Shown here: positions 3,001 through 63,283 of the stretch, piece by piece
Position numbering within the stretch: the first letter of the stretch is position 1
Layout of the letters: each line of letters opens with the position of its first letter
Source of the DNA: a virus
Virus record (IMG/VR): IMGVR_UViG_3300032213_001813
Span: 1 to 64,000 of that record
Length of the DNA stretch: 64,000 nucleotides
Direction: 5' to 3' (one strand)
Made by a program: the position numbers and the translations under genes
The notes under the pieces: model-generated
Database searches by the model: none
Told to the model about the DNA's origin: nothing
Seen by the model: the letters and a program-made list of their open reading frames with translations, nothing else

Positions 3001-5410
3001 TGCTATTGTAACAAACATAGTTGCTAATGGAACTGGTTCAGCAATAGTATCCGCATCATTAAGTTTACCAACATCATCTTATACAACGGCGGTAAGCAAT
3101 GATAATAGATGGATTGCATACGGAATACTAAAAAATAACATTTCATTCATACAGGACGAAACTATTGCTTATCTATCTTCTTCTTGGAGCACGGCATCTT
3201 ATGATGAAAGTAAGTGTAGACGTGATGTGGGCTTGATTATAAGTGGAGCAGCTGAAGATTTAGTATTTAACTCAAATTCAGCATCATTATTTAATGGTAT
3301 ATTCTATTATCAATACCCATCACAAGCGCAAGGTGCACAATTGAACCAAACATTGGATGGTATCAATTACGCAAGTAAGTTAGCACAAAATATAGTACAA
3401 AATGTAACTTATGTAACGGCATCAGTAATTGTATCGGCATCATACGCATTAATTAGAAAGAATAGAGAGTTTATACAAAATGAAACTATTGCTTATCTAT
3501 CTTCTTCTTGGAGTACGGCATCTTACATTGAATCAACTTGTAAAAGAGATGTTGGTCATATTATAGATGCAGTTTCTACGGATTTACTTTATGGTGGCAA
3601 TGAAAGAAGTACAAACGCTGGGGTATTCTATTACTTATATCCATCACAAGCGCAAGGTGCACAATTACAACCAACATTGACAGGTGTTAAATACGCAGGA
3701 CAACTTTCTAAGAATACTGCGGCATCATTAACATTTGTGACAGCATCTCAAATAGTATCAGCATCAGTTAATTTGTTGAGAAAGAATAGAGAGTTTATAC
3801 AAAATGAAACCCTAGCTTACTTAACTGCTAGTTGGAGTACATTTGAATATGATAAAGATAAGTGTAAGAGAGATGTTGGTTATATATTAGATGGTGTTAC
3901 TACCGATTTATTATATGGTGGTAATGAGAGAACTGTATTGAATGGTAAATTTTATTACGAATATCCATCTTTAGCAATTGTTGAAGGAGATGGTGATGGT
4001 GTTGGACAATTAGGACAAACAATTGATGGTATAAACTACGCAGGTAGAATAGCACAAAAGATTGTACAAAATACACAATTCGTAACTGCATCATTACAAG
4101 CATCAGCATCATTTGATTTATTAAGAAAGAATAAAGCATTTATAGCAGAAGAAACTATTGCGTATGTATCTTCTTCTTGGAGTAGTGTATATTATAACGA
4201 AGCAACTTGTAAGAGAGATGTTGGGTATCTAATAGATGCGGCAGCAACGGATGTATTGTATGGTGGTACTGAAAGAAGTGTAATAGCTGGACAGTATTAT
4301 TATTTATATCCATCAAATGCAACCAATAAGGGTGTTCCATCGACTCAAAATCAATCAGACCCAACACTTACTGGTATCCGATATGCTGGAAGGGTATCTA
4401 AAAAGGTAATAACTAACCCAATATATTCAGTACCATCAGCATCTTTATTAACAACTGCAAAATTGTTGACAGATAACAAACAATTGATACAAAAAGAAAC
4501 TATAACGTTCTTATCTGCATCTTGGAGTGGTTTAAAATACAATGAAGTAAGTTGTAGTAGAGATTTAGGATTTATTATAGATGCAATTAGAACCGATTTA
4601 GTGTATGGTGGTAATGAAAGAAGTATTGAAGCTGGTTCATACTACTACAAATTCCCATCTGTAGCAATATTAGATAGTTACTCTGATAATAATGGACAGA
4701 AAAAACAAACGGTAGATGGTATAAACTTCGCAAGAGGACTTTCTGAAAAAATAGTAGCAAATACTCTATTAACTTACTTAGCACCAACTACATTAAGAAG
4801 ACAAGCCGCTGAAAGATTAAAAGGTGGAAAAGAAGAATTAAAACAAAGAGCAATTGGATACACAAATGGAGCTTTTCCATATTTAGTATATAATGAGGCA
4901 AGTTGTTCGCGTGATACTGGATTTATTGTAGATGCGGCTGTAACTGATTTATTATATGGTGGAAATGAAAGAGGAATTAGAGCAGCATCTTCATATTACG
5001 ATGGTCAATATGGAAGTGCAATAGCTGTGACTAGAGACCAATTATTGGAAACTTTGGAAACAAATAGATATTTAAGAACTAGAGCAGAGTTTATTGCAGC
5101 AGGAGCACCTTTGGAATCATTTGGTTCACTAATTGTGGCAACTGGTATTGACTACTCTTACAATGGTAGTGGTGTTACATTTAAAGCACTTCCTCCAAAT
5201 CAGGGTGGTAGTGGTGTTGCGGACCCGGCATTTGAAATTACTGAATTAGGTGGTGGTAGAATATTCTTCACCTCTGGAAATCAGGATGGTGACTTTAGAA
5301 TTGGTACTGGATTAAGTATCAATCAAGCTACTGGAACTTTAGTTGGTAGAACATTTAGTAAATCATTGTTCTCATTGGTAACTCCGTTCTCATTAGCACT
5401 ACAAATATAA
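2..5410 (+). CDS. Repeat-rich virion structural protein, 5' end missing
   Basis: The reading frame is open to the left edge, so the gene starts upstream of the window; a TTG at 68 is not a convincing start. At least 12 copies of a roughly 65-80-residue unit are visible. Each carries FIQ-E-IAYLSSSW, then C-x-RD, then a YGGNER-like segment and a YYY-YPS motif. Copies 1-3 and 4-12 are separated by a Ser/Thr-rich region (about 1080-1900) with 5-6 shorter repeats of the form IKVTNT...ISSS. Every long unit keeps a single Cys. Similar units occur in large structural proteins of marine T4-like phages (from memory). The C-terminal 100 residues are Gly-rich and not repeated. The position beside giant fibres suggests a tail or neck fibre component. 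Function is inferred; the repeat structure is seen directly. Confidence 0.75.
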   Translation, partial: TNKVLINSTFVSASNSNVTAYELIFNNKAFIQNETIAYLSSSWSNFYYSESKCKRDIGYILDAVATDILYGGNERVAKAGEYYYLYPSLATEGNDGDTGGQLNQTLDGIKYTKGITEKIVANLLLQSPTTSELTGFNLLLDNKKFIQSESIAYLSSSWSGGDGFYYNETTCKRDIGHIIDAVRTDLVYGGNERSSKAGEYYYLYPSAAILTGSVSPTAATQKGPTLDGLKYVAGTAENVIANKVLISPTGFTTSSVNLLRQNKTFIQNETVQYIDAFFPNLVYLRETCRRDVGYILDAVITDTFYGGNQRSVIAGQYYYLYPSLATKSTQVRETVAGVDYAKALAKAIAQNIKLNSPTLTTNTDGNIKVTNTTQYTSSLGATTTEVNQISSSFALVTNIVENGLTSIPTIIENGNGLVKVTNTIQYSSSISASGAELDIITSSFKHVADIIEKGVSFVPDSLARNYNYGFELATPTLLHISSKEQTIGTGSYNLSTQITNVSSSYGSVVNVVKNGLSVLPTLVANTSSSLKVTNANPIRQAISASSFDTNKIASGFDLILSVIENGTSLLPTIISNTSASIKVTNTPQIISGSAAGRLQGKLISSSLSLVIDVLLSNGTSSIGLKQSTFPIANTNAKINSAYNLLVSNSKFIVDETIAYMSSSWSGFAYTQSKCERDLTGILSGSAFDLLYGGNSASLFNGKFYFDFPSQATGSQLDQTITAIKYASGLAEKVVLNTVFTHISASINQPTSASWNSLRTNKAFIQSESIAYLSSSWSNFGYNETTCKRDIGYVIDAVATDLLYGGNERSVVAGRYYYDYPSQATNAQLEPTLTGVRYAKGTAMNVVVNKQIFTSSLETQYAYDLIKSNKLFIQSESIAFVNAKYPNLQYSESKCYRDLGYIIDGVATDLLYGGNERSRDNADYYYQFPSQANASGSQVVETVEAIKYAARITTASISSTLIGTPQIIRNTLGNIKVTNATQYISASSATSTEATILSASIAIVTNIVANGTGSAIVSASLSLPTSSYTTAVSNDNRWIAYGILKNNISFIQDETIAYLSSSWSTASYDESKCRRDVGLIISGAAEDLVFNSNSASLFNGIFYYQYPSQAQGAQLNQTLDGINYASKLAQNIVQNVTYVTASVIVSASYALIRKNREFIQNETIAYLSSSWSTASYIESTCKRDVGHIIDAVSTDLLYGGNERSTNAGVFYYLYPSQAQGAQLQPTLTGVKYAGQLSKNTAASLTFVTASQIVSASVNLLRKNREFIQNETLAYLTASWSTFEYDKDKCKRDVGYILDGVTTDLLYGGNERTVLNGKFYYEYPSLAIVEGDGDGVGQLGQTIDGINYAGRIAQKIVQNTQFVTASLQASASFDLLRKNKAFIAEETIAYVSSSWSSVYYNEATCKRDVGYLIDAAATDVLYGGTERSVIAGQYYYLYPSNATNKGVPSTQNQSDPTLTGIRYAGRVSKKVITNPIYSVPSASLLTTAKLLTDNKQLIQKETITFLSASWSGLKYNEVSCSRDLGFIIDAIRTDLVYGGNERSIEAGSYYYKFPSVAILDSYSDNNGQKKQTVDGINFARGLSEKIVANTLLTYLAPTTLRRQAAERLKGGKEELKQRAIGYTNGAFPYLVYNEASCSRDTGFIVDAAVTDLLYGGNERGIRAASSYYDGQYGSAIAVTRDQLLETLETNRYLRTRAEFIAAGAPLESFGSLIVATGIDYSYNGSGVTFKALPPNQGGSGVADPAFEITELGGGRIFFTSGNQDGDFRIGTGLSINQATGTLVGRTFSKSLFSLVTPFSLALQI

Positions 5411-25353: not shown

Positions 25354-27657
25354 ATGGCAGAAAGAATTGTATCACCCGGTGTATTCACAAGAGAAAACGA
25401 TTTATCCTTCTTAACGCAAGGAATCGGTGAAATCGGAGCAGCATTTATAGGACCTTTCAAACAAGGACCAGCATTCATTCCAACGATTGTAACAACTCAA
25501 TCGGAATTTGAAGAAATCTTCGGAACACCCGATGGAACATATTATACTGAATATGCAGTACAAAATTACCTTAGAGAAGCTGGAACAGCAACTATTGTAA
25601 GAGTAGCTGGTGTTGGTGGATATGAACAAATTGCACCAATTGCAATTAAAGGTGTAGATATTAACGGAAATTCCAAAATAATAGGAGTTTTACATTCAAC
25701 AGCTGCTGGTGATGAAAAAGTAGGATTCCCTTCAGTACAAATTACTTCAAGTTTATCAACTTCTGGTTCATTTGTAGTTTCTGGTTCTGGAATTGGATAT
25801 GTATCTGCTTCAATATTTGCAACTGCAACAAATGATATCGCCGATGTATTTGGTGAATCTCCATTTGGTTCAAAGAAAGCATATTCTTACATTTATTTAG
25901 AAAACACTGTAAGTGCTTCTTATACTGGTTCTGGATTAGCTAGCATTGCAGCTAGTAATTTACCAACTCAAAATTACGCATACGATGCACAGGCTGCAGA
26001 AACACCAATGGTTCAATCACAATTGATTAGTGGTGAGAGATATGATTTATTTAAATTTGTAACATTAGGTGATGGTACATTATACAATACTAAATTTAAA
26101 GTTGGTATTTCTAATGTAAAAGCAGCTGGCGAAGATGGAGCAACTGATTACTCTGTATTTACTGTAACAATTCGTTCATACTCCGATACTGATAAGAGAA
26201 AGGTAGTTTTAGAAACATTTAACAATGTAAACTTAGACCCTGCTTCTCCAAACTATATTGCAAGAAAAATCGGTGATAGATATATGACTATTGATGCAAA
26301 TGGTAAAATTACTGAATTTGGTGATTACTCAAACAAATCAAAATATATAAGAGTTGAAGTATCAGCTCAGGGTTCATTCCCTATATCAGCAGCACCATTT
26401 GGACATACTGCATATACAAACCCAATTAAAGCAAATAGTAACGCTGAAGCTAGACAATTCCCAGCAATAACTTTCCAAACAAATTCAACTGGAAACACAT
26501 CATCATCTCCAATTTATTATGCTGGATTTGATTTTGAAACTACTGGTGTATCAATGGATAACAAACAATACTTAAAACCAATTCCTGTAAACGCTGAAAC
26601 TGGTTCTAACGTAGCATTTGCATTTGATTCTCAACTATCATATGTAATGACTGGTTCGGTTTCATCTGATATGGTTAAAAGACAATTTGTATTAGGATTC
26701 CAACAAGGATTTGATGGTTCTAATCCAACAATTCCTGTTAATTTAGGAACTGATATTAGTGCAGCTAACACACAGGGATTAAATTGCGCAACTTCAACAA
26801 CATCTGGTTCAGTAGCATACTCTAAAGCAATCAACGCAGTATCCAATCCTGATGAATGGGATATTAATATGGTTGTAACACCTGGTATTATAAGAAGATT
26901 ACACCCAGCAATTACTACAAAAGCAATTGATATGTGTGAAGATAGACAAGATTGTTTCTATTTGGCTGATTTTAACGCATCTGCGGATACGATTACTGAA
27001 GCAACTGAACAAGCTAACTCTGTAGATTCAAACTATGTAGCAACTTACTACCCTTGGGTTAAGACTATTGATAATAACACAAACAAATTAATGAGTGTTC
27101 CACCATCAGTATTGTTACCGGCAGTATTTGCACAAAACGATAGATTAGCAGCAGAATGGTTCGCACCTGCTGGTTTAAATAGAGGTGGTATCACTGGAGC
27201 AGTTAGTGTATTAAATAGATTAACACACTCTGAAAGAGATACTCTATATGAGAACAAAGTAAACCCAATCGCAGCATTCCCTGGACAAGGTATTGTAGCA
27301 TTTGGACAAAAAACATTGCAAGATAAAGCATCTGCATTGGATAGAATCAACGTTAGAAGATTATTAATTACTGTTAAGAAATTTATCGCTTCAACATCTC
27401 GTTATTTGGTGTTCGAACAAAACACAGCAATAACAAGAGGTAAATTCTTATCAACTGTTAATCCTTATTTGGATGATATTCAAAGAAGACAAGGTCTTTA
27501 CGCATTTAGAGTAGTAATGGATGAAACCAACAACACTCCTGATGTAATTGATAGAAACATATTAGCTGGACAGATTTTCTTACAACCTGCTAAGACTGCT
27601 GAATTCATCGTAATCGATTTCAACATCTTACCAACTGGAGCATCGTTTACAGCATAA
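25354..27657 (+). CDS. Tail sheath protein, gp18-like
   Basis: 767 residues, close to the T4 gp18 length (659) but longer. The N-terminus is typical of contractile sheaths: ISPGVFT-like (VSPGVFTRENDLS), then GAAFIGPFKQGPAF-P and SEFEEIFG. The C-terminal 250 residues have the conserved sheath core: NRLTHSERDTLYENKVNPI, IVAFGQKTLQ, INVRRLLITVKKFI and FLSTVNPYLDDI. Subunits stack around the tail tube and contract to drive the tube through the envelope. The extra length is in the middle insertion domain, usually exposed on the surface. Its own promoter-like motif and the upstream terminator suggest strong separate expression. Confidence 0.95.
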   Translation: MAERIVSPGVFTRENDLSFLTQGIGEIGAAFIGPFKQGPAFIPTIVTTQSEFEEIFGTPDGTYYTEYAVQNYLREAGTATIVRVAGVGGYEQIAPIAIKGVDINGNSKIIGVLHSTAAGDEKVGFPSVQITSSLSTSGSFVVSGSGIGYVSASIFATATNDIADVFGESPFGSKKAYSYIYLENTVSASYTGSGLASIAASNLPTQNYAYDAQAAETPMVQSQLISGERYDLFKFVTLGDGTLYNTKFKVGISNVKAAGEDGATDYSVFTVTIRSYSDTDKRKVVLETFNNVNLDPASPNYIARKIGDRYMTIDANGKITEFGDYSNKSKYIRVEVSAQGSFPISAAPFGHTAYTNPIKANSNAEARQFPAITFQTNSTGNTSSSPIYYAGFDFETTGVSMDNKQYLKPIPVNAETGSNVAFAFDSQLSYVMTGSVSSDMVKRQFVLGFQQGFDGSNPTIPVNLGTDISAANTQGLNCATSTTSGSVAYSKAINAVSNPDEWDINMVVTPGIIRRLHPAITTKAIDMCEDRQDCFYLADFNASADTITEATEQANSVDSNYVATYYPWVKTIDNNTNKLMSVPPSVLLPAVFAQNDRLAAEWFAPAGLNRGGITGAVSVLNRLTHSERDTLYENKVNPIAAFPGQGIVAFGQKTLQDKASALDRINVRRLLITVKKFIASTSRYLVFEQNTAITRGKFLSTVNPYLDDIQRRQGLYAFRVVMDETNNTPDVIDRNILAGQIFLQPAKTAEFIVIDFNILPTGASFTA

Positions 27658-37049: not shown

Positions 37050-37421
37050 ATGGCAATTGATATACTTACATTTGGGAGATTGTTTAAGGAAGATACTTCA
37101 ATTTATAAAAGAAGTGTAAAAACTTATTTTCCAAACCCAGAAATAAATTCATATAACAAAGGATATATTATTAGATATTTTTTACAAAAATCAAATGATT
37201 CCGATTCATATGTATATGAAGTAGAACAAACTTTATTTGATGAATTCTCAAACAATCCATTTTATAAGTGTGTTACGTTAACATGGAGATTAACGGGTAG
37301 TGTAGATGAAGTTATAGAATCTAATAGAATTTCATTACAAATTGCATGTGAACAATTACCTGCTCTAAAATTATACCTACCAAATTTTTTACAATTTCAC
37401 AAAGAATATTTGGAAAAGTAA
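37050..37421 (+). CDS. Unknown baseplate-region protein
   Basis: 123 residues with no motif I recognise; it is rich in Tyr and Phe (FGRLFKEDTSIYKRSV, then YIIRYFLQKS and ISLQIACEQLPALKLYLPNF). Tight coupling to the hub gene suggests a baseplate or hub-assembly role. The -33 element of the tmRNA promoter (37409) lies inside its last codons. T4 has several small baseplate proteins in comparable places, but a homologue cannot be assigned by eye. Confidence 0.6.
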   Translation: MAIDILTFGRLFKEDTSIYKRSVKTYFPNPEINSYNKGYIIRYFLQKSNDSDSYVYEVEQTLFDEFSNNPFYKCVTLTWRLTGSVDEVIESNRISLQIACEQLPALKLYLPNFLQFHKEYLEK

Positions 37422-37440
37422 AAAATTTATTGTATATTTG
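37409..37440 (+). promoter_or_regulatory. Bacteroidota-type promoter of the tmRNA
   Basis: -33 TTTG at 37409-37412 and -7 TATATTTG at 37433-37440, separated by 20 bases, matching the Bacteroidota consensus TTTG/TAnnTTTG. The mature tmRNA 5' end at 37460 lies 20 bases after the -7 element, leaving a short 5' leader for processing. Confidence 0.7.
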
Positions 37441-37459: not shown

Positions 37460-37839
37460 GGGGATGACCGGCTTTTGACAGGTATGAAGACTGGTTGTAT
37501 TGATGCAAGTAAGGTTAGATGGAAACCTTTGAAGACCTATCAAACAATAAGTGCAGACGTAGAATTATCTACAATGACTTTCGGAGATGCTATGGCATGG
37601 ATGGAGTCTTTCGATTACGCAGTAGCTGCCTAATCAATCCCGTATCACTCATGGGATTTAAAAAGAAGTGAATGTTTAAGTTTACCGAAACTTTAAATCG
37701 GTTGGTGGAATCTGCTGAATTAACCATTCGGCCCCAATTCTTTTGGAGTGTTAGTAAGATAAAACACTATCCTAAACTTGTGAACGATTTACATTAGAAA
37801 CTTATCTGGACGCGGGTTCGAATCCCGCCATCTCCACCA
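37460..37839 (+). ncRNA. ssrA: Transfer-messenger RNA (tmRNA), one-piece
   Basis: 380 bases. The acceptor stem GGGGATG (37460-37466) pairs with CATCTCC (37829-37835), followed by A and an encoded CCA (37837-37839). The T arm is GCGGG-TTCGAAT-CCCGC (37812-37828). The 5' part (GACCGGCTTTTGACAGG) and the 3' part (TGGACGCGGGTTCGAATCCC) follow bacterial tmRNA consensus. The tag frame ends TCGATTACGCAGTAGCTGCCTAA, giving a C-terminal DYAVAA like the ClpXP degron of bacterial tags. From AATAAGTGCAGACG, like the E. coli TAGTCGCAAACG context, I place the resume codon at GCA 37553, so the tag is 26 residues (37553-37633 with stop). tmRNA with SmpB rescues stalled ribosomes and tags the nascent chain for degradation. 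Resume codon is inferred; identity is firm. Confidence 0.93.
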
Positions 37840-37840
37840 C

Positions 37841-37876
37841 TCCCACTTTTCCATTTGGATTTGTGGGATTTTTTTT
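37841..37876 (+). terminator. Intrinsic terminator of the tmRNA
   Basis: TCCCAC (37841-37846) pairs with GTGGGA (37863-37868), followed by eight Ts (37869-37876). It begins one base after the CCA end region. Its loop contains the -33 box of the next promoter. Confidence 0.75.
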
Positions 37877-37885
37877 GTATCTTTG
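37854..37885 (+). promoter_or_regulatory. Bacteroidota-type promoter nested in terminator
   Basis: TTTG 37854-37857 (in the terminator loop), 20-base spacer, TATCTTTG 37878-37885. The -7 box ends four bases before the ATG at 37890, predicting a leaderless message. Confidence 0.7.
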
Positions 37886-37889
37886 TAAA

Positions 37890-39176
37890 ATGAAAGTTAT
37901 AGAATCCGTAGAGGAAGTAAATTGGTTGAAAGCTAGGCTGGAAACCGAAATATCTATATGGTATCCACTATGGGTTGATAACTCAAAGCATCCTCTTCAC
38001 ACTAATCTTTCCCTTATACTGATACGATGTTTAGATGAGTTGTATGTTTTACCAATTCAACACGCAGATGCGCTTACAATCAAAGTATCGGATGTTAAAT
38101 CAATACTAAATACCAAGGGGAAGAAGTGGGTATTTCAAAAGAAGAAAATATTGCACTCTCTCCACATTTCGGTAAATCTATATGATGTAGATTCGGAATA
38201 CTTTATAAGGACAGGTGAGGTAATCGACTATGACGGGGCTTTAAATCCTCTCTTATCAACGCTAACTCATAAAGGGTATAGAGATAACTTAATACAATCA
38301 ATTCCTCTAATGAAGATTGTGGAAGTAATAGAACCACAATTCCTAAAATATCATTCCAATAATTCAGATTCTAATACATATCAATGGTACAATGAAACAT
38401 TCATACCTACACTTTCAGAAATGGAGGGATATGGGATTCGGGTCGATAGGAAAAAATTTACTGATAGATGGAATCAAGCTATTAGACATTTGACAGATGA
38501 TAGTAAAGTGTTTACGGAATACAATCCATTTACGGTAACAGGTAGACCATCAAATCGACATGGTGGTGTAAACTATGCCGCTCTCAATAAATCGGATGGT
38601 AGTAGGGAGTGTTTCGTTTCCGATGGGATATTCCTACAAATGGATTATAACGCATACCACCCACGACTAATTGGTAAGTTGATTAAGTTTGATATGCCGG
38701 ATGGGAATGTACATGAGTGGTTAGCCAAACAATATGGTTGTGATGTGAATGAGGGTAAGGGTATTACATTCCAATTATTATATGGGGGAATTGATGATAC
38801 GTTCCGTCAAATCCCATATCTAAACGCAGTGGCTGATTACATAGATGGATTATGGATTGAAACACAACAAAACGGATACCTACAAACCAAATATCGTAGA
38901 ATACCCCTAAGTTGGATAGAGGGTTCAAATCCACAAAAAGTATTTAACTATCTCCTACAAGCCTTAGAAACTGAAATGAACATTGATAAGATGAGGAAGA
39001 TATTGGATTATATTAAGGGTAGTGAAATCCGTTTTATCTTATATACTTATGATTCGTTCCTTTTTGATGTTCCTATGGATGTGGATAAGAATAAGATTAA
39101 GGATTTGAAAGAAATGATTGAAGAGGGTGGGTTTCCAATCAAAGCAAGTTGGGGTTTGGATTATGGAAAAGTGTAG
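37890..39176 (+). CDS. Family A (PolI-like) DNA polymerase with degenerate exonuclease
   Basis: 428 residues from ATG 37890; an in-frame GTG at 37863 lies inside the terminator and is rejected. The palm motifs of family A polymerases are present: TGRPSN-HGGVNYAAL (TGR-S...N), motif A LQMDYNAYHPRLIG (Asp retained), motif B GKGITFQLLYGG (the K-F-YG fingers motif), and motif C YTYDSFLFDVP, where HDE has become Y-D-S. The N-terminal 200 residues (IWYPLWVDNSKHPLHTNLS) look like a DEDD exonuclease that has lost DxE. Possible roles are repair, primer filling or lagging-strand work beside the family B replicase at 60764. Base composition is slightly less AT-rich than the baseplate genes. Catalytic competence is uncertain. 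Confidence 0.75.
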   Translation: MKVIESVEEVNWLKARLETEISIWYPLWVDNSKHPLHTNLSLILIRCLDELYVLPIQHADALTIKVSDVKSILNTKGKKWVFQKKKILHSLHISVNLYDVDSEYFIRTGEVIDYDGALNPLLSTLTHKGYRDNLIQSIPLMKIVEVIEPQFLKYHSNNSDSNTYQWYNETFIPTLSEMEGYGIRVDRKKFTDRWNQAIRHLTDDSKVFTEYNPFTVTGRPSNRHGGVNYAALNKSDGSRECFVSDGIFLQMDYNAYHPRLIGKLIKFDMPDGNVHEWLAKQYGCDVNEGKGITFQLLYGGIDDTFRQIPYLNAVADYIDGLWIETQQNGYLQTKYRRIPLSWIEGSNPQKVFNYLLQALETEMNIDKMRKILDYIKGSEIRFILYTYDSFLFDVPMDVDKNKIKDLKEMIEEGGFPIKASWGLDYGKV

Positions 39177-39217: not shown

Positions 39218-39847
39218 ATGAAAAAATTAGGTTTATCTCTATTGTTCTTATTTACTTTAATTGTTGTAAGAGCACAAGACATTGTAGTAATAAAACATAC
39301 AAATTACACAACACACTTTAGTAAATCAAAAAGATACCCAGTATTAGTACAATGGGAAACAACAAAAGCAATGGTAGGTTGTCCAACTCCCCTAAAAAGA
39401 AAGGATAACTTTAAGCCAGACCCACAATTGGTAGATGAAACTAATATTGCATTTTATTATGTAAAGAGTGGGTACGATAGAGGACACGTAATGCCGGCAG
39501 CAGATAATCTTTGCCAAACACAAGCGGTGCAGGATGAATGTTTCTACTTTAGTAATATGGTAGCACAAACACATAGATTGAATGCCGGAGATTGGAAATC
39601 ATTAGAAACTGCAACAAGAGATTGGGCATTAATTGCTTCAAAAGTAAGAGTATGGAGTGGTTCGGTTGGAGAACAAAAGAAAATAGGATTAGTATCAGTT
39701 CCTACTCAATGTTGGAAAGTAGTTCAGGTGGCAGGAAAGTGGCATGCATATTTATTCAACAATGATTTATCTAACCCAGATGGATTTCAAAATAACGAAG
39801 TACCTTTAGCACAAATAGAAAAATTGACTGGTTTCAAATTTAAGTAA
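39218..39847 (+). CDS. Secreted DNA/RNA non-specific endonuclease (DRGH family)
   Basis: 209 residues. An N-terminal signal peptide is clear: MKK, hydrophobic GLSLLFLFTLIVV, then RAQ with likely cleavage near residue 19-20. The catalytic block YDRGHVMPAADN carries the DRGH motif (87-90, general base His90), followed by FYFSNMVAQTHRLNAGDWKSLE with the Asn typical of the NUC1/EndA beta-beta-alpha-metal family. It should cut DNA and RNA in the periplasm or outside the cell. A secretion signal on a phage nuclease is unusual; possible roles are destroying competing phage DNA, thinning extracellular DNA at lysis, or recycling. Preceded by a late-type motif. Confidence 0.88.
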   Translation: MKKLGLSLLFLFTLIVVRAQDIVVIKHTNYTTHFSKSKRYPVLVQWETTKAMVGCPTPLKRKDNFKPDPQLVDETNIAFYYVKSGYDRGHVMPAADNLCQTQAVQDECFYFSNMVAQTHRLNAGDWKSLETATRDWALIASKVRVWSGSVGEQKKIGLVSVPTQCWKVVQVAGKWHAYLFNNDLSNPDGFQNNEVPLAQIEKLTGFKFK

Positions 39848-54620: not shown

Positions 54621-54824
54621 ATGGGAATATTAAGGGGTCAAACGCACCCATCTGCCAAACTTACGGATGAGCAGGTGTTACAAATTAGAAGACTATGGCA
54701 AATGGGTCATAGGAATATTAAAGTGATTGCCCGAAACAATAAGGTATCGCCATCAAATGTGTTAAAAATTATCCAACGTAAAACTTGGACTCATCTAAAC
54801 GAATTTTGGTCTGGTAGTTTATGA
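54621..54824 (+). CDS. Small HTH DNA-binding protein
   Basis: 67 residues: GQTHPSAKLTDEQVLQIRRL followed by VIARNNKVSPSNVLKIIQRKTWTHL. This matches the short helix-turn-helix often attached to HNH homing endonucleases, here without any HNH part. It could be a stand-alone regulator or the remnant of a homing endonuclease. The last four bases overlap the start of the first Mom-like gene (ATGA), so it may control or be cotranslated with that gene. Confidence 0.65.
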   Translation: MGILRGQTHPSAKLTDEQVLQIRRLWQMGHRNIKVIARNNKVSPSNVLKIIQRKTWTHLNEFWSGSL

Positions 54825-55594
54825 AAATAGAAGGTAAACAATATTGCGATATCTCTAAATTTTCAATTAGAGAGATTAACAAAAACATAGCAAAGGATAT
54901 CATTGTCAATAACCATTATAGTGGGATATGGACGAAGGTATCCTATGCTTTGGGATTGTTCTACATATCCGAAGATGAGCACAATTTCTTTAGTGGGGTG
55001 AATGAACAATTAGTTGGAGTTGCCTGTTATGGTGACCCAGTTGGTAGAAACGCAGGAGCATCTATTTCGGAGTTACTTCCAAGAGATGGTGTGTTAGAAT
55101 TGACCCGATTATTTGTATTTGATGGATATGGTTCTAACATTGAGAGTTGGTTTGTTGGACAATCGTTTGAATGGTTACGAAAGAATGTACCTCGTATCAA
55201 AGCCCTAATATCATATTCAGACCCAAATGCTGGACATTTAGGAACGGTATATCAAGCTACTAATTGGATATATCAGGGTAACAAAATCAGATGGAGTGAT
55301 AGTTGGAGTTTTAAATGGAGTGAGGAAGATGAATGGCATCATAGTAGAACATCCTATGTGAAATATGGAACGAATGACCCTAAGATAATTCAGACAATGG
55401 TAACATCTCCATTTTGGATTAAAAGAGAACCTCGTAAGCATAGATATGTGTATATTCTAACCAAAGATAAGAAAGAAAGAAAATCATTTATAAATTCACT
55501 AAAACATGAAGTGTTTCCATATCCCAAAGTGGAGTTGGATATTATTGATGAGGTTCATAAAATGGACCCGATAAATTTGGAAATATCAAATTAA
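54821..55594 (+). CDS. Mom-like DNA modification enzyme, copy 1
   Basis: 257 residues. It resembles the Mom family, a GNAT-like fold that in phage Mu makes N6-carbamoylmethyl-adenine and protects DNA from restriction. Motifs: AKDIIVNNHYSG with a His-Tyr pair (32-33), LVGVACYGDP, LELTRLFVFDGYGSNIESWFVGQSF-type core, ALISYSDPNAGHLGTVYQA, ATNWIYQG, then KHRYVYIL near the C-terminus. The paralogue at 55917 shares all of these. It overlaps the HTH gene by four bases. The exact modification is unknown; the family assignment is from remembered motifs, not a search. Confidence 0.7.
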   Translation: MKIEGKQYCDISKFSIREINKNIAKDIIVNNHYSGIWTKVSYALGLFYISEDEHNFFSGVNEQLVGVACYGDPVGRNAGASISELLPRDGVLELTRLFVFDGYGSNIESWFVGQSFEWLRKNVPRIKALISYSDPNAGHLGTVYQATNWIYQGNKIRWSDSWSFKWSEEDEWHHSRTSYVKYGTNDPKIIQTMVTSPFWIKREPRKHRYVYILTKDKKERKSFINSLKHEVFPYPKVELDIIDEVHKMDPINLEISN

Positions 55595-55611: not shown

Positions 55612-55920
55612 ATGGCTAAAAAACTAATAGAAGTACCAAACGCAACTCAATTCGAAAAAGTTTATAAAGATGAGGATTGTACAATGGTTTGGAAGTATGA
55701 TACTAACAAATTCACAAATGGACCTGTATCGGTTGAAATCAAATGGAGTGCTGAATATCTGAAAGAAAACAAATCACCAAGAAAACCAAAAGCAGAAGGT
55801 AAATTAGGTGAGTTGCATGATGCGTTCGCTAAGTTAGATGCTAAACGGAAGAAAAAGAAAAAGCCGGTAGCTAAAAAAAAAATGACAATAAAGAAGAAGA
55901 TGGTTTCTGGTAAGATATGA
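55612..55920 (+). CDS. Small lysine-rich protein between Mom-like genes
   Basis: 102 residues. The N-terminal 60 are mixed (TQFEKVYKDEDCTMVWKYD, then VSVEIKWSAEYL); the C-terminal 35 are strongly basic (KLDAKRKKKKKPVAKKKMT), suggesting nucleic acid binding. The end overlaps the start of the second Mom-like gene by four bases (ATGA). It could help deliver the modification enzyme to DNA or act as a transcription factor; unknown otherwise. Confidence 0.6.
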   Translation: MAKKLIEVPNATQFEKVYKDEDCTMVWKYDTNKFTNGPVSVEIKWSAEYLKENKSPRKPKAEGKLGELHDAFAKLDAKRKKKKKPVAKKKMTIKKKMVSGKI

Positions 55921-56717
55921 AAGTAGAAGGAAAAGATTATTGTGATGTTAGTAAGGTGTATGTTCATCCAATAGCTAAAAACATTGCAAAAGATATTATT
56001 GTAAAGAAACACTATACTCACGCTTGGACAGCTTGTAGATATGCATTAGGAATTTATTACAAATCCGATGATGCTAATACATTTGATGGAGATAGATTGA
56101 TAGGTTGTGTGATTTACGGATTCCCAGTAGGTGCAAAGGCATCAACATCAATTTGTGAGGGATTAACCAAAGATAACATTTTAGAACTAACTCGTCTATA
56201 TTGTGATGATGGGTATGGTTCTAACATTGAATCATTTGCATTAGGACAGACATTCAAATGGTTAAAAGAAAACGATAAAGCAATCAAAGTACTCCTATCA
56301 TATGCGGATAACGGACAGGCACATTTAGGTGGTATCTATCAAGCTACAAATTGGATTTATCAAGGATTATCATCAGATATAGCACTAATGCCAAATTGGG
56401 GTATCTCATTAAGTAAAGACCCTTACAAATGGATTCATAGTAGAACTGTATTCTCCCTATGGGGTAGTGGTAATTTGGCACACTTACAAAACGAAATTGG
56501 TAAAGAGGGATATAAAGAATTTTGGAGAAGAGAAGAACCACCAAAACATAGGTACGTTCAGATAATTGCGCAAGATAAAAGAGAGAAGAAGGATTTGATG
56601 GGTAGGTTGAAGCATGAAATTAAACCCTACCCAAAAGATACTGCATCTTATAATACAGAAGTAGTACATCATTTAACAACATACGAAGTACCAGAAGGAA
56701 CTGAAAACTTTTGGTAA
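55917..56717 (+). CDS. Mom-like DNA modification enzyme, copy 2
   Basis: 266 residues, clearly paralogous to the gene at 54821: AKDIIVKKHYTHAW with the same His32-Tyr33, IGCVIYGFPVG, LELTRLYCDDGYGSNIES, VLLSYADNGQAHLGGIYQA, ATNWIYQG and KHRYVQII. The segment between ATNW and KHRY is rewritten (LSSDIALMPNWG), which may change target recognition or the group transferred. ATGA overlap with the previous gene. Two diverged copies suggest two modifications, two targets or a heteromer. Confidence 0.7.
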   Translation: MKVEGKDYCDVSKVYVHPIAKNIAKDIIVKKHYTHAWTACRYALGIYYKSDDANTFDGDRLIGCVIYGFPVGAKASTSICEGLTKDNILELTRLYCDDGYGSNIESFALGQTFKWLKENDKAIKVLLSYADNGQAHLGGIYQATNWIYQGLSSDIALMPNWGISLSKDPYKWIHSRTVFSLWGSGNLAHLQNEIGKEGYKEFWRREEPPKHRYVQIIAQDKREKKDLMGRLKHEIKPYPKDTASYNTEVVHHLTTYEVPEGTENFW

Positions 56718-60763: not shown

Positions 60764-63283
60764 ATGTACCAGAACGCATATTACCAAAGAGAAAAGAATT
60801 TAGTGCACATTTGGGATGATAAACAAGGATATAGAAGTTTTCCTTACACTCGTTATGCGTATGAAAAAGCCGAAAGAGGTGATTATACATCCCTATATGG
60901 TGATAAACTAACAAAGATATACAAATTCAAAAAAGATGACCCGAACTTATTTGAATCCGATGTACCTGAAACAACTCGTATATTGGTGGACACTTATACG
61001 GATTCGGATGTTCCATCGGAGGGGCACGTTATCTTAACATACGATATTGAGTGTGAGATGGAGACCGGATTGCCGGATACTGAAAAAGCTGAAAATGAAT
61101 TAACTGCAATTGGTTTACATGATTCGGCAGCTGACCAATACTATGTTTTGATTATGGATAAGGCTGGAAAGATGGTTGAAAAAACTATTGGGAAAGCAAT
61201 TGTAATTCCGTTTAGAGATGAAAGGGATATGATACTTAAATACTTGGATTTGTATGAGTATATCAATCCCTCAATCGTTACAGGATGGAACATTGATTAC
61301 TTTGATACACCTTACCTATACAATCGTATTAAAAGGGTGTTAGGAGCAAAGCATGCTAATCGTTTATCACCGATTGGAGAATGTTTCTGGTCACCATATC
61401 GTAAGAGATTCTTTATGGCAGGTGTATCTTATTTGGATTACATTGGGTTGTACAAATCATATACCTATGTTGAGTTAGATAACTATCGTTTGGATACGGT
61501 AGCAACAAAAGAATTGGGTAGGGGTAAGATTGAGTACAAGGGTAATTTGGATAACTTATTCAGAGATGATATTGAAAAGTTTATTGAGTATAACTTAGTG
61601 GATGTTCAGTTGGTTGTGGATATGGAACGTAAGTTACAATTCATAGATTTATGTAGAGGTATCTGCCACGCTGGACACGTACCTTATGAGGATTTTGTAT
61701 ATTCATCCAAATTTTTAGAGGGAGCACTTCTAACTTATCTAAAGAGAAAGAACATTGTAGCACCTAACAAACCTGCGGATAGACAGGAGATGATGCAGGC
61801 ATTGAGAGATAATGAACAAGAGAAGTTTATCGGAGCATATGTTAAAGCACCTATTGTTGGTAAGTATGATTGGATATATGACTTAGACTTAACATCTCTA
61901 TATCCATCCATCATTATGACCTTAAATATCTCACCGGAAACAAAGGTAGCTAAGATTGATAATTGGGATGCTCAAAAGTATATGAAGGGTGAGATTGATG
62001 AGTTTAATATTGGCAATCGAACTATTTCAAAGGAGAATTTAGAAAAGTTATTTAAGGAAACCAATTATTCAGTATCATCAAATGGTGTAATGTATAGAAC
62101 CGATAAGCCAGGCTGTATTCCTGATATTTTGGATTTGTGGTTTGACCAAAGGGTTGAATTCCGTAAGTTGGAAAAGAAATTTGGTGAAGCTGGTGATAAA
62201 GAAAAATATGCATTCTATAAGAAAAGGCAGTTAGTTCAGAAAATTCTACTTAACTCACTATACGGAGTATTGGGATTACCTGCATTCCGTTTTTATGATG
62301 TGGATAATGCTGAAGCTGTAACAACATCAGGTCAAACTGTAATTAAATCCACAGCTGATATGGCTAATATTAAATACAATAAAGAATTAGGAACTAAAGG
62401 AGAGGATTTCAATATCTACATTGATACGGATTCGGTATTCTTTTCAGCAGTACCAATTCTAAACCATAGATATGAGGATTGGAAATCAGAAAACGATACT
62501 GAAATTGCATTAAAAGTGGATGCTATTGCTGGTGAAACGCAAGATTTCTTAAATAACTTCTATGATATATTATCCGAAAAGGTATTCAAAGTAGATAAAA
62601 CCAAACATCGTTTCCAAATCAAAAAGGAGTTTGTATCTAAATCAGGTATTTGGATTGCTAAAAAGAGATATGCACAATGGATTATTGCGGAAAATGGTAT
62701 TCCGTGTGATAGATTGGATGTTAAAGGATTGGACGTAGTTCGTTCATCATATCCTGCCCAATTCCGTAAGTTTATGAGTGAGGTTTTGATTGATATTCTA
62801 AGAGGTGTAGGTGAAGATGAAATGACGGATAAGATATATGATTTTAAGAAAGCATTATCGGAAATGGAAGTAGTATCTATCGCTAAGAATTCAGCAGTTA
62901 AAGAGTTATCTAAATACATACCAAAGAAAAAGGATAATAGGGCAATGTTCCAATTCAATAGTGGAACTCCTGCACACGTTAAGGCAGCAATTGCACATAA
63001 CCAACTAATTGCTCACTTTAATATTCAAAAGTGTGAACCAATGAGAGATGGTGATAAAATTAAATGGGTGTATCTAAAACAAAATCCATATGGTTTAGAT
63101 GGGCTTGGATTTAAAGGTTACGAAGACCCAGACGAAATTATGGATTTGGTAAAAACTTACATTGATTACGATAAAATCTTTGAAAGGGAACTACTAAAGA
63201 AGTTAGAAGATTTCTATGGAGCATTGGGTTGGGGTGAAGTTCTTTCTTCACAAAAAACAGCTGAAAAGTTTTTCTCTTTTTAG
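60764..63283 (+). CDS. DNA polymerase, family B (gp43-like)
   Basis: 839 residues (T4 gp43 898). Exonuclease motifs: LTYDIECE (D94, E96), GWNIDYFDTPYLYNR and YNLVDVQLV. Polymerase motifs: DLDLTSLYPSII (motif A, catalytic D373 with D375), KILLNSLYGVLG (motif B), and YIDTDSVFF (motif C, D554 and D556). All catalytic residues are present, so it should be the replicase with proofreading. It is followed by the sliding clamp, its processivity factor. The last codon overlaps the -33 box of the clamp promoter. A family A-like polymerase is also encoded at 37890. Confidence 0.96.
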   Translation: MYQNAYYQREKNLVHIWDDKQGYRSFPYTRYAYEKAERGDYTSLYGDKLTKIYKFKKDDPNLFESDVPETTRILVDTYTDSDVPSEGHVILTYDIECEMETGLPDTEKAENELTAIGLHDSAADQYYVLIMDKAGKMVEKTIGKAIVIPFRDERDMILKYLDLYEYINPSIVTGWNIDYFDTPYLYNRIKRVLGAKHANRLSPIGECFWSPYRKRFFMAGVSYLDYIGLYKSYTYVELDNYRLDTVATKELGRGKIEYKGNLDNLFRDDIEKFIEYNLVDVQLVVDMERKLQFIDLCRGICHAGHVPYEDFVYSSKFLEGALLTYLKRKNIVAPNKPADRQEMMQALRDNEQEKFIGAYVKAPIVGKYDWIYDLDLTSLYPSIIMTLNISPETKVAKIDNWDAQKYMKGEIDEFNIGNRTISKENLEKLFKETNYSVSSNGVMYRTDKPGCIPDILDLWFDQRVEFRKLEKKFGEAGDKEKYAFYKKRQLVQKILLNSLYGVLGLPAFRFYDVDNAEAVTTSGQTVIKSTADMANIKYNKELGTKGEDFNIYIDTDSVFFSAVPILNHRYEDWKSENDTEIALKVDAIAGETQDFLNNFYDILSEKVFKVDKTKHRFQIKKEFVSKSGIWIAKKRYAQWIIAENGIPCDRLDVKGLDVVRSSYPAQFRKFMSEVLIDILRGVGEDEMTDKIYDFKKALSEMEVVSIAKNSAVKELSKYIPKKKDNRAMFQFNSGTPAHVKAAIAHNQLIAHFNIQKCEPMRDGDKIKWVYLKQNPYGLDGLGFKGYEDPDEIMDLVKTYIDYDKIFERELLKKLEDFYGALGWGEVLSSQKTAEKFFSF

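Follow-up and report, generated by a model that had tools for sequence, protein, structure and literature searches.

The window analysed here, bases 1-64000 of a 188,016-base IMG/VR virus record, contains a complete one-piece phage tmRNA gene at 37460-37839 on the plus strand. The N-terminal part of its 26-residue tag is, judged from codon comparisons, conserved as a peptide among phages, and it is absent from the hosts searched. A phage tmRNA as such is not new; the novelty is the tag. The recurrence of this peptide motif across phages and its absence from bacteria is the point of interest that the original prediction for this locus missed.

ARAGORN and the RF00023 covariance model assign the same bounds to the gene (380 nt), in agreement with the original prediction of a phage-encoded tmRNA. 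The covariance-model search that the prediction called for gives 100 bits, compared with an Rfam gathering score of 47, over model positions 1-374 of 374 (E 7.5e-38). ARAGORN reports a single RNA gene in the window, the tmRNA, with the tag ADVELSTMTFGDAMAWMESFDYAVAA. The predicted tRNA-like domain and encoded CCA are recognized by both programs. The 5' strand of the acceptor stem, GGGGATG (37460-37466), pairs with CATCTCC at 37829-37835, the third pair being G-U, and the 3' part of the domain (37822-37839) comprises the end of the T-arm, the acceptor 3' strand, the discriminator A and CCA. Because the order of its parts is standard and the RF00023 match is full, the gene is not of the permuted two-piece form (RF04321). 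Elsewhere in the record RF00023 gives only ~12-bit fragments, in the tRNA gene region; the 23 tRNA genes lie at 127039-132505, ~90 kb from the tmRNA, and one of them is unassigned by ARAGORN. The match, the tag frame and the flanking signals are together far beyond chance.

Comparison with relatives reveals that these elements are maintained. The G3-U70 pair and discriminator A73 are alanine identity elements, and none of the 73 distinct family members lacks either. The acceptor stem is fully paired in 73 of 73 and the T-stem in 72 of 73, with compensatory changes in acceptor pairs 4-7. A hairpin, GATTACGCAGTAGCTGCCTAATC (helix 5; 37613-37635, plus strand; fold z -3.41), overlaps the stop and the codons for DYAVAA. 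Among relatives its stem alternates between GCAG/CTGC and GCTG/CAGC; the two bases change together and leave both affected codons specifying Ala. On its covariance match, tRNA-like domain, alanine identity and constrained tag frame, all read from sequence, the locus is a member of the tmRNA family. The region between the tag and the 3' domain, which holds the pseudoknots, is a mosaic in several relatives (e.g. loci L235, L245, L249 and L264), with a few alternative modules in varying combinations; this suggests recombination within the RNA gene.

The gene has transcription signals of its own, as had been predicted, and both are conserved in relatives. Upstream is a promoter of the pattern TTTGG-N19-TATATTTG (37409-37440, plus strand), which is found in all 37 distinct upstream regions of relatives. 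We take the form TTTG / TAnnTTTG to be the Bacteroidota type. The TTGG form occurs 8 times in the window against 1.9 expected, a count that none of 100 shuffles reaches; the six copies on the plus strand all lie at 37410 or beyond and precede replication-side genes. Downstream is an intrinsic terminator, a hairpin followed by a T-run (37841-37877, plus strand; fold z -4.65). A terminator scan with a loop limit of 8 missed this hairpin; the T-run is present in 29 of 31 distinct downstream regions of relatives. The promoter of the next gene, TTTGG-N19-TATCTTTG (37854-37885, plus strand), overlaps the terminator and is conserved in most relatives. A stable RNA of ~380 nt is predicted from the conserved promoter and terminator. 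Since the identity pair, the compensatory changes, the hairpin exchange, the promoter and the T-run are all conserved, the gene is best read as a working tmRNA and not a pseudogene, in which such features would not be expected to persist.

The tmRNA lies between a 123-aa protein of unknown family, the last gene of the structural module (37050-37421, plus strand), and a DNA-polymerase-A-like protein (PHROG 17; 37890-39176, plus strand) that served as the synteny marker for fetching relatives. Because structural genes of a contractile-tailed phage (sheath, tube, baseplate wedge) are upstream and a T4-like set of replication genes (PolA-like, SSB, UvsX, DnaB helicase, RNR, PolB) is downstream, the predicted position, where late and early modules meet, is confirmed. 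Several other features of the record were noted. A DNA/RNA non-specific endonuclease (PF01223) with a signal-peptide-like N-terminus is encoded at 39218-39847, right behind the PolA-like gene. The phage has both the PolA-like protein, which has no Pfam match, and a T4-type PolB (60764-63283). A Mom-type DNA modification protein (PF25680) is encoded at 54821-55594, and two genes further on, at 55917-56717, is a second protein with a similar N-terminus. At 73.4-93.3 kb of the record there are ~20 open frames on one strand, mostly of 200-410 aa.

The tag frame runs from the resume codon GCA to the stop codon TAA (37553-37633, plus strand), with 26 codons at 37553-37630 and the stop at 37631-37633. 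Tags of 30 loci from sampled Bacteroidota, with one ARAGORN misread set aside, have 8-11 residues, so that the phage tag is about three times as long, and the unusual length and AVAA end that had been predicted are both borne out. It is not of the host Bacteroidota type (GENNYALAA, ANDYSYAMAA; ~8-11 residues). In phage tmRNAs gathered through a generic 3' end, the median tag length is 13 residues. The conserved N-terminal segment of the tag, VELSTMTFGDAMAW, is encoded at 37559-37600 on the plus strand.

Relatives were fetched in three ways: by PolB, by the neighbouring PolA-like gene, a route blind to the tag, and by a degenerate pattern matching the core of the tag. Through PolB, a tmRNA above the cut-off was found in 7 of 50 records, every one with a long tag. 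Through the PolA-like gene, 71 loci with upstream sequence were obtained, and 70 have an upstream tmRNA, mostly ~50 nt from the gene (65 found by ARAGORN and five by sequence reading, one of the five confirmed by Rfam); L344 is the sole locus without a tmRNA at that place. All 70 tags have E[LM]S[TS][WMF]xxxxxM in common (fuller form E[LM]S[TS][WMF]x[FY]x[DS]xM), and their ends are degron-like, mostly [YL]A[VLIY]AA. A further, overlapping PolA-like fetch gave a tmRNA in 139 of 147 loci; no tmRNA was found near the gene in 80 loci of more distant PolA-like relatives. A strict form of the tag-core pattern occurs in 67 viral contigs and in none of 84,980 prokaryote genomes. In more than half of the pattern loci, no gene that flanks the tmRNA in the window is nearby, so the tag is present in several gene contexts.

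Some relatives depart from this picture. Among the family tags the C-terminal variants LAVAA, EYAYAA, EMAA and one MVHA are seen, and three loci keep the N-terminal motif with a deviant C-terminus (L264 1088-1478, SMVHA; L284 7259-7662, EMAVAA; L240 892-1284, LEMAA). Because the C-terminus is not invariant, the degron claim does not apply uniformly. Microcystis phage Mel-JY01 and several large PolB relatives lack a tmRNA, as does L344 at this place; since such close relatives exist, the tmRNA is not essential to this phage type. ARAGORN missed the tmRNAs of L302, L303, L308, L340 and L356 (~3559-3944), which are plain by sequence, and it selects a wrong tag frame in several other loci. Tags that it reports such as VNKPEHYLSAP were discarded as wrong frames, the true frame carrying a VELS-type tag.

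A profile of the phage tag has no credible match in 396 Bacteroidota genomes, while the positive control, the phage itself, scores 1.3e-13. Six weak matches in these genomes (best E 0.005, four inside longer open frames) were set aside as chance level. The profile finds no second copy in the rest of the phage genome and no match among solved structures. A tblastn search with the 25-aa tag against phage and plasmid collections returned nothing, short peptides being near the limit of that method.

Selection on the peptide was assessed by counting single-base changes along a minimum spanning tree over a 13-codon core, in loci fetched via the neighbour gene. Of the changes in the tag frame, 13 are synonymous and 15 are not (0.21 expected, P ~0.002); the other two frames of the same bases give P 0.59 and 0.97, and an enlarged set gives a similar outcome. 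Few changes underlie the test, and once the codons on which the search expression relied are removed the P value of the tag frame weakens to 0.035, so that the VELS class alone is moderate evidence. Differences per comparison are 0.32 at third codon positions and 0.18 and 0.19 at first and second positions, and the non-synonymous changes are conservative (E/D, A/V/L, T/S, F/Y/W). Counts on the tag-pattern loci (31 synonymous to 9 non-synonymous) were not used, the pattern itself fixing residues and freeing wobble bases. Nucleotide identity of the tag core is 0.77 in the unbiased set, an average value, so the core is not the best-conserved stretch of the RNA, as had first been supposed.

A second class of long tags occurs in Bacteroidota phages, with the form QVxANMxxV..IL-linker-ELAVAA, unrelated to the VELS motif. 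The query that led to it among phage records was the tmRNA of Cellulophaga phage phi38:1 (NC_021796; L535 26803-27164, minus strand), which scores 87.6 bits with Rfam, is unannotated and has the tag ...AQIEANMEAVNAILNLEVAVGV, ending in VAVGV. The tmRNA of phi40:1 is identical to it, and that of Calle, which is annotated, is 99.4% identical. Flavobacterium phage FpV4 (KT876724; L538 760-1174, plus strand) has an unannotated tmRNA of 58.2 bits, missed by ARAGORN, with the tag ...NAQVEANMNMAFSLIREDVAVAA. For Cellulophaga phage phi14:2 (KC821624, Crassvirales; L537 801-1270, plus strand) there is an ARAGORN candidate below the Rfam cut-off, whose frame NTQLKANM...KLAMVA resembles this class. Q[VIL][EK]ANM is common to the long tags of Calle, phi14:2 and FpV4. 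A wider search, with a pattern on the 5' RNA element and not on the tag, found 37 viral contigs and none of the 396 Bacteroidota genomes. The motif Q[VI]xANMxxV..[IL][LI], followed by a linker of variable length and then mostly by ELAVAA or similar, is present in 34 of these 37 tags. The synonymous excess in this class is stronger than in the VELS class, at 35 to 15 (P ~3e-12; 3e-8 without the N and M codons). Both classes combine a conserved N-terminal segment with a degron-like end; they are thus two unrelated motifs with the same build.

The host is likely a member of the Bacteroidota, as originally predicted, on the grounds of promoter type and gene kinship; the PolA-like neighbour is related to its counterpart in Flavobacterium phage immuto. 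Against this assignment, the nearest isolate PolB is that of Mel-JY01 (PP395634.1, 51%). The relatives of Mel-JY01 themselves look like Bacteroidota phages, and its stated cyanobacterial host may deserve checking. No SmpB was detectable in the phage record or in 21 other phage records, and dependence on the SmpB of the host is therefore presumed. Among the sampled Bacteroidota genomes, 60 of 61 have a tmRNA of their own and all 61 have Lon-family matches, most of them strong and full.

We consider it probable that the locus is a working phage tmRNA whose bipartite tag, with a recognition segment at the N-terminus and a degron at the C-terminus, alters the handling of rescued chains. Charging, use of SmpB, tagging and degradation are steps that we infer from sequence. 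The host promoter system would transcribe the tmRNA as a separate unit, host RNase P would process it and host AlaRS would charge it with alanine. Host SmpB would then bring the charged tmRNA to ribosomes stalled on broken or non-stop mRNAs, where translation would resume on the phage frame and add the tag. In the SsrA pathway, AVAA-like tag ends are read by ClpX. The C-terminal ...YAVAA would accordingly serve as a ClpX-type degron, as in the host tag, and VELS[TS][MW]TFxDAMA[FW] would be a second recognition element. Its reader would most likely be a protease, such as Lon or ClpX of the host, or else an adaptor of host or phage. This partner is conjecture, drawn from the parallels of Lon with the extended Mycoplasma tag and of SspB with the E. 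coli tag; no ClpP, another candidate, was found in the phage. During infection rescued chains would follow a rule set by the phage in place of the one that goes with GENNYALAA-type host tags. It is plausible that rescued proteins meet a different fate, and because the motif recurs in dozens of phage genomes and is found in no searched bacterial genome, the data suggest that these phages have changed what becomes of such proteins. Possible, if rather doubtful, is the wider proposal that several Bacteroidota phage lineages independently replaced the host tag, with an N-terminal targeting peptide, a dedicated partner and a phage-chosen fate beyond ClpXP.

Other explanations of the long tag have to be weighed against this bipartite reading. 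The extra residues might be a neutral spacer in an ordinary phage tmRNA that merely boosts ribosome rescue and degradation, a reading in keeping with the AVAA end, which other tags share, and with the frequency of phage tmRNAs (PMC9004378). A spacer would, however, be expected to drift or shrink. Other phage tags have a median of 13 residues, and ~20 distinct tags from different gene contexts show peptide-level conservation of the N-terminal segment; we regard this explanation as unlikely. If the length were instead kept for the sake of the RNA, through a pseudoknot or helix in the coding part, the near invariance of the codons GAA TTA TCT and the inclusion of the tag end in a covarying hairpin would be accounted for. 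The third codon positions are nevertheless the most variable, the amino acid replacements are conservative and the synonymous excess is confined to the tag frame, all of which make an RNA-level cause very improbable.

The tag could also redirect or stabilise rescued chains, or supply a peptide directed at a host factor, rather than cause degradation. The most constrained part is indeed not the degron alone, and some C-termini depart from the ALAA pattern (MVHA in L264, VAVGV in phi38:1), but nearly all other tags end in AA, and the profile searches of the 396 Bacteroidota genomes and of the phage genome found no host or phage protein that the tag mimics. This role seems improbable. That the RNA is a decoy titrating SmpB or the host tmRNA, as has been proposed for the tRNA-domain-only form of mycobacteriophage DS6A, has a precedent in the inhibition of tmRNA by DS6A-type molecules (PMC4131195, PMC11915505). 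The present gene has an intact tag frame, resume region and stop helix, which are under coding constraint, and we give the decoy hardly any credence.

The reason for phages to carry a tmRNA has been an open question since the first mycobacteriophage cases. A motif conserved as a peptide and absent from the bacterial genomes searched, together with the unrelated motif of the second class, which is present in cultured phages of Cellulophaga and Flavobacterium, suggests that the answer lies in the tag and not in rescue alone, and the bipartite reading predicts a partner, whether a protease, an adaptor or another factor. Such genes are missed by annotation: the copies of the second class in cultured phages are mostly unannotated, and ARAGORN mis-assigns or misses several.

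The original prediction held that tmRNAs are known in just a few phages, which is contradicted by 402 tmRNA-bearing phages among 18,146 genomes (PMC9004378); they are also known in huge phages (PMC7162821) and in mycobacteriophages (PMC4131195). Its statement that none is known in a T4-like phage of Bacteroidota stands to the extent that no report of one was found in the literature, while tmRNAs of other Bacteroidota phages had already been published, in Cellulophaga phage Calle (PMC8776804) and Maribacter phage Panino (PMC11590407). In Panino (PP540027; L536 27557-27889) the annotated tmRNA overlaps two tRNA genes, and Rfam places the start of a permuted tmRNA (RF04321) at 27590, which is unusual for a Bacteroidota phage. 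The open-access literature yielded no description of an extended tag conserved among phages.

The gene resembles the bacterial one-piece tmRNA (RF00023) in its full-length model match, G3-U70 pair, T-arm, AA-ending tag frame and stop codon inside a hairpin, and differs in being phage-borne and in its 26-residue tag with a conserved N-terminal motif. The tmRNAs of the mycobacteriophage Bxz1 group, the Streptomyces BE phages and the permuted forms of pelagimyophages and methylophages are likewise carried by lytic phages. Those of their tags that were seen are short (that of Streptomyces phage Tomas is DNSNVAFALAA), and no report of an extra conserved tag segment in them was found in searchable papers. 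Closer in design are phi38:1, phi40:1, Calle, phi14:2 and FpV4, which are Bacteroidota phages with a long bipartite tag and mostly an AVAA-like end, but have another N-terminal motif, another 5' element and belong to other phage families.

Outside phages, the E. coli SsrA tag, in which the N-terminal half is bound by the adaptor SspB and the C-terminus is a ClpX degron, offers the same bipartite logic of an adaptor-binding part plus a degron; the motif differs, however, and SspB was found in none of the 61 Bacteroidota genomes. Gur and Sauer in 2008 and Ge and Karzai in 2009 reportedly described an extended Mycoplasma tmRNA tag that is read by Lon. That tag is said to have ~26-27 residues and a long N-terminal part that matters, in both respects like the phage tag, with which it has, to our knowledge, no sequence similarity. 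Work on the extended Mycoplasma tag and Lon is cited in PMC11986505. The Bacteroidota hosts differ from this case in that they retain a normal short tag as well as Lon.
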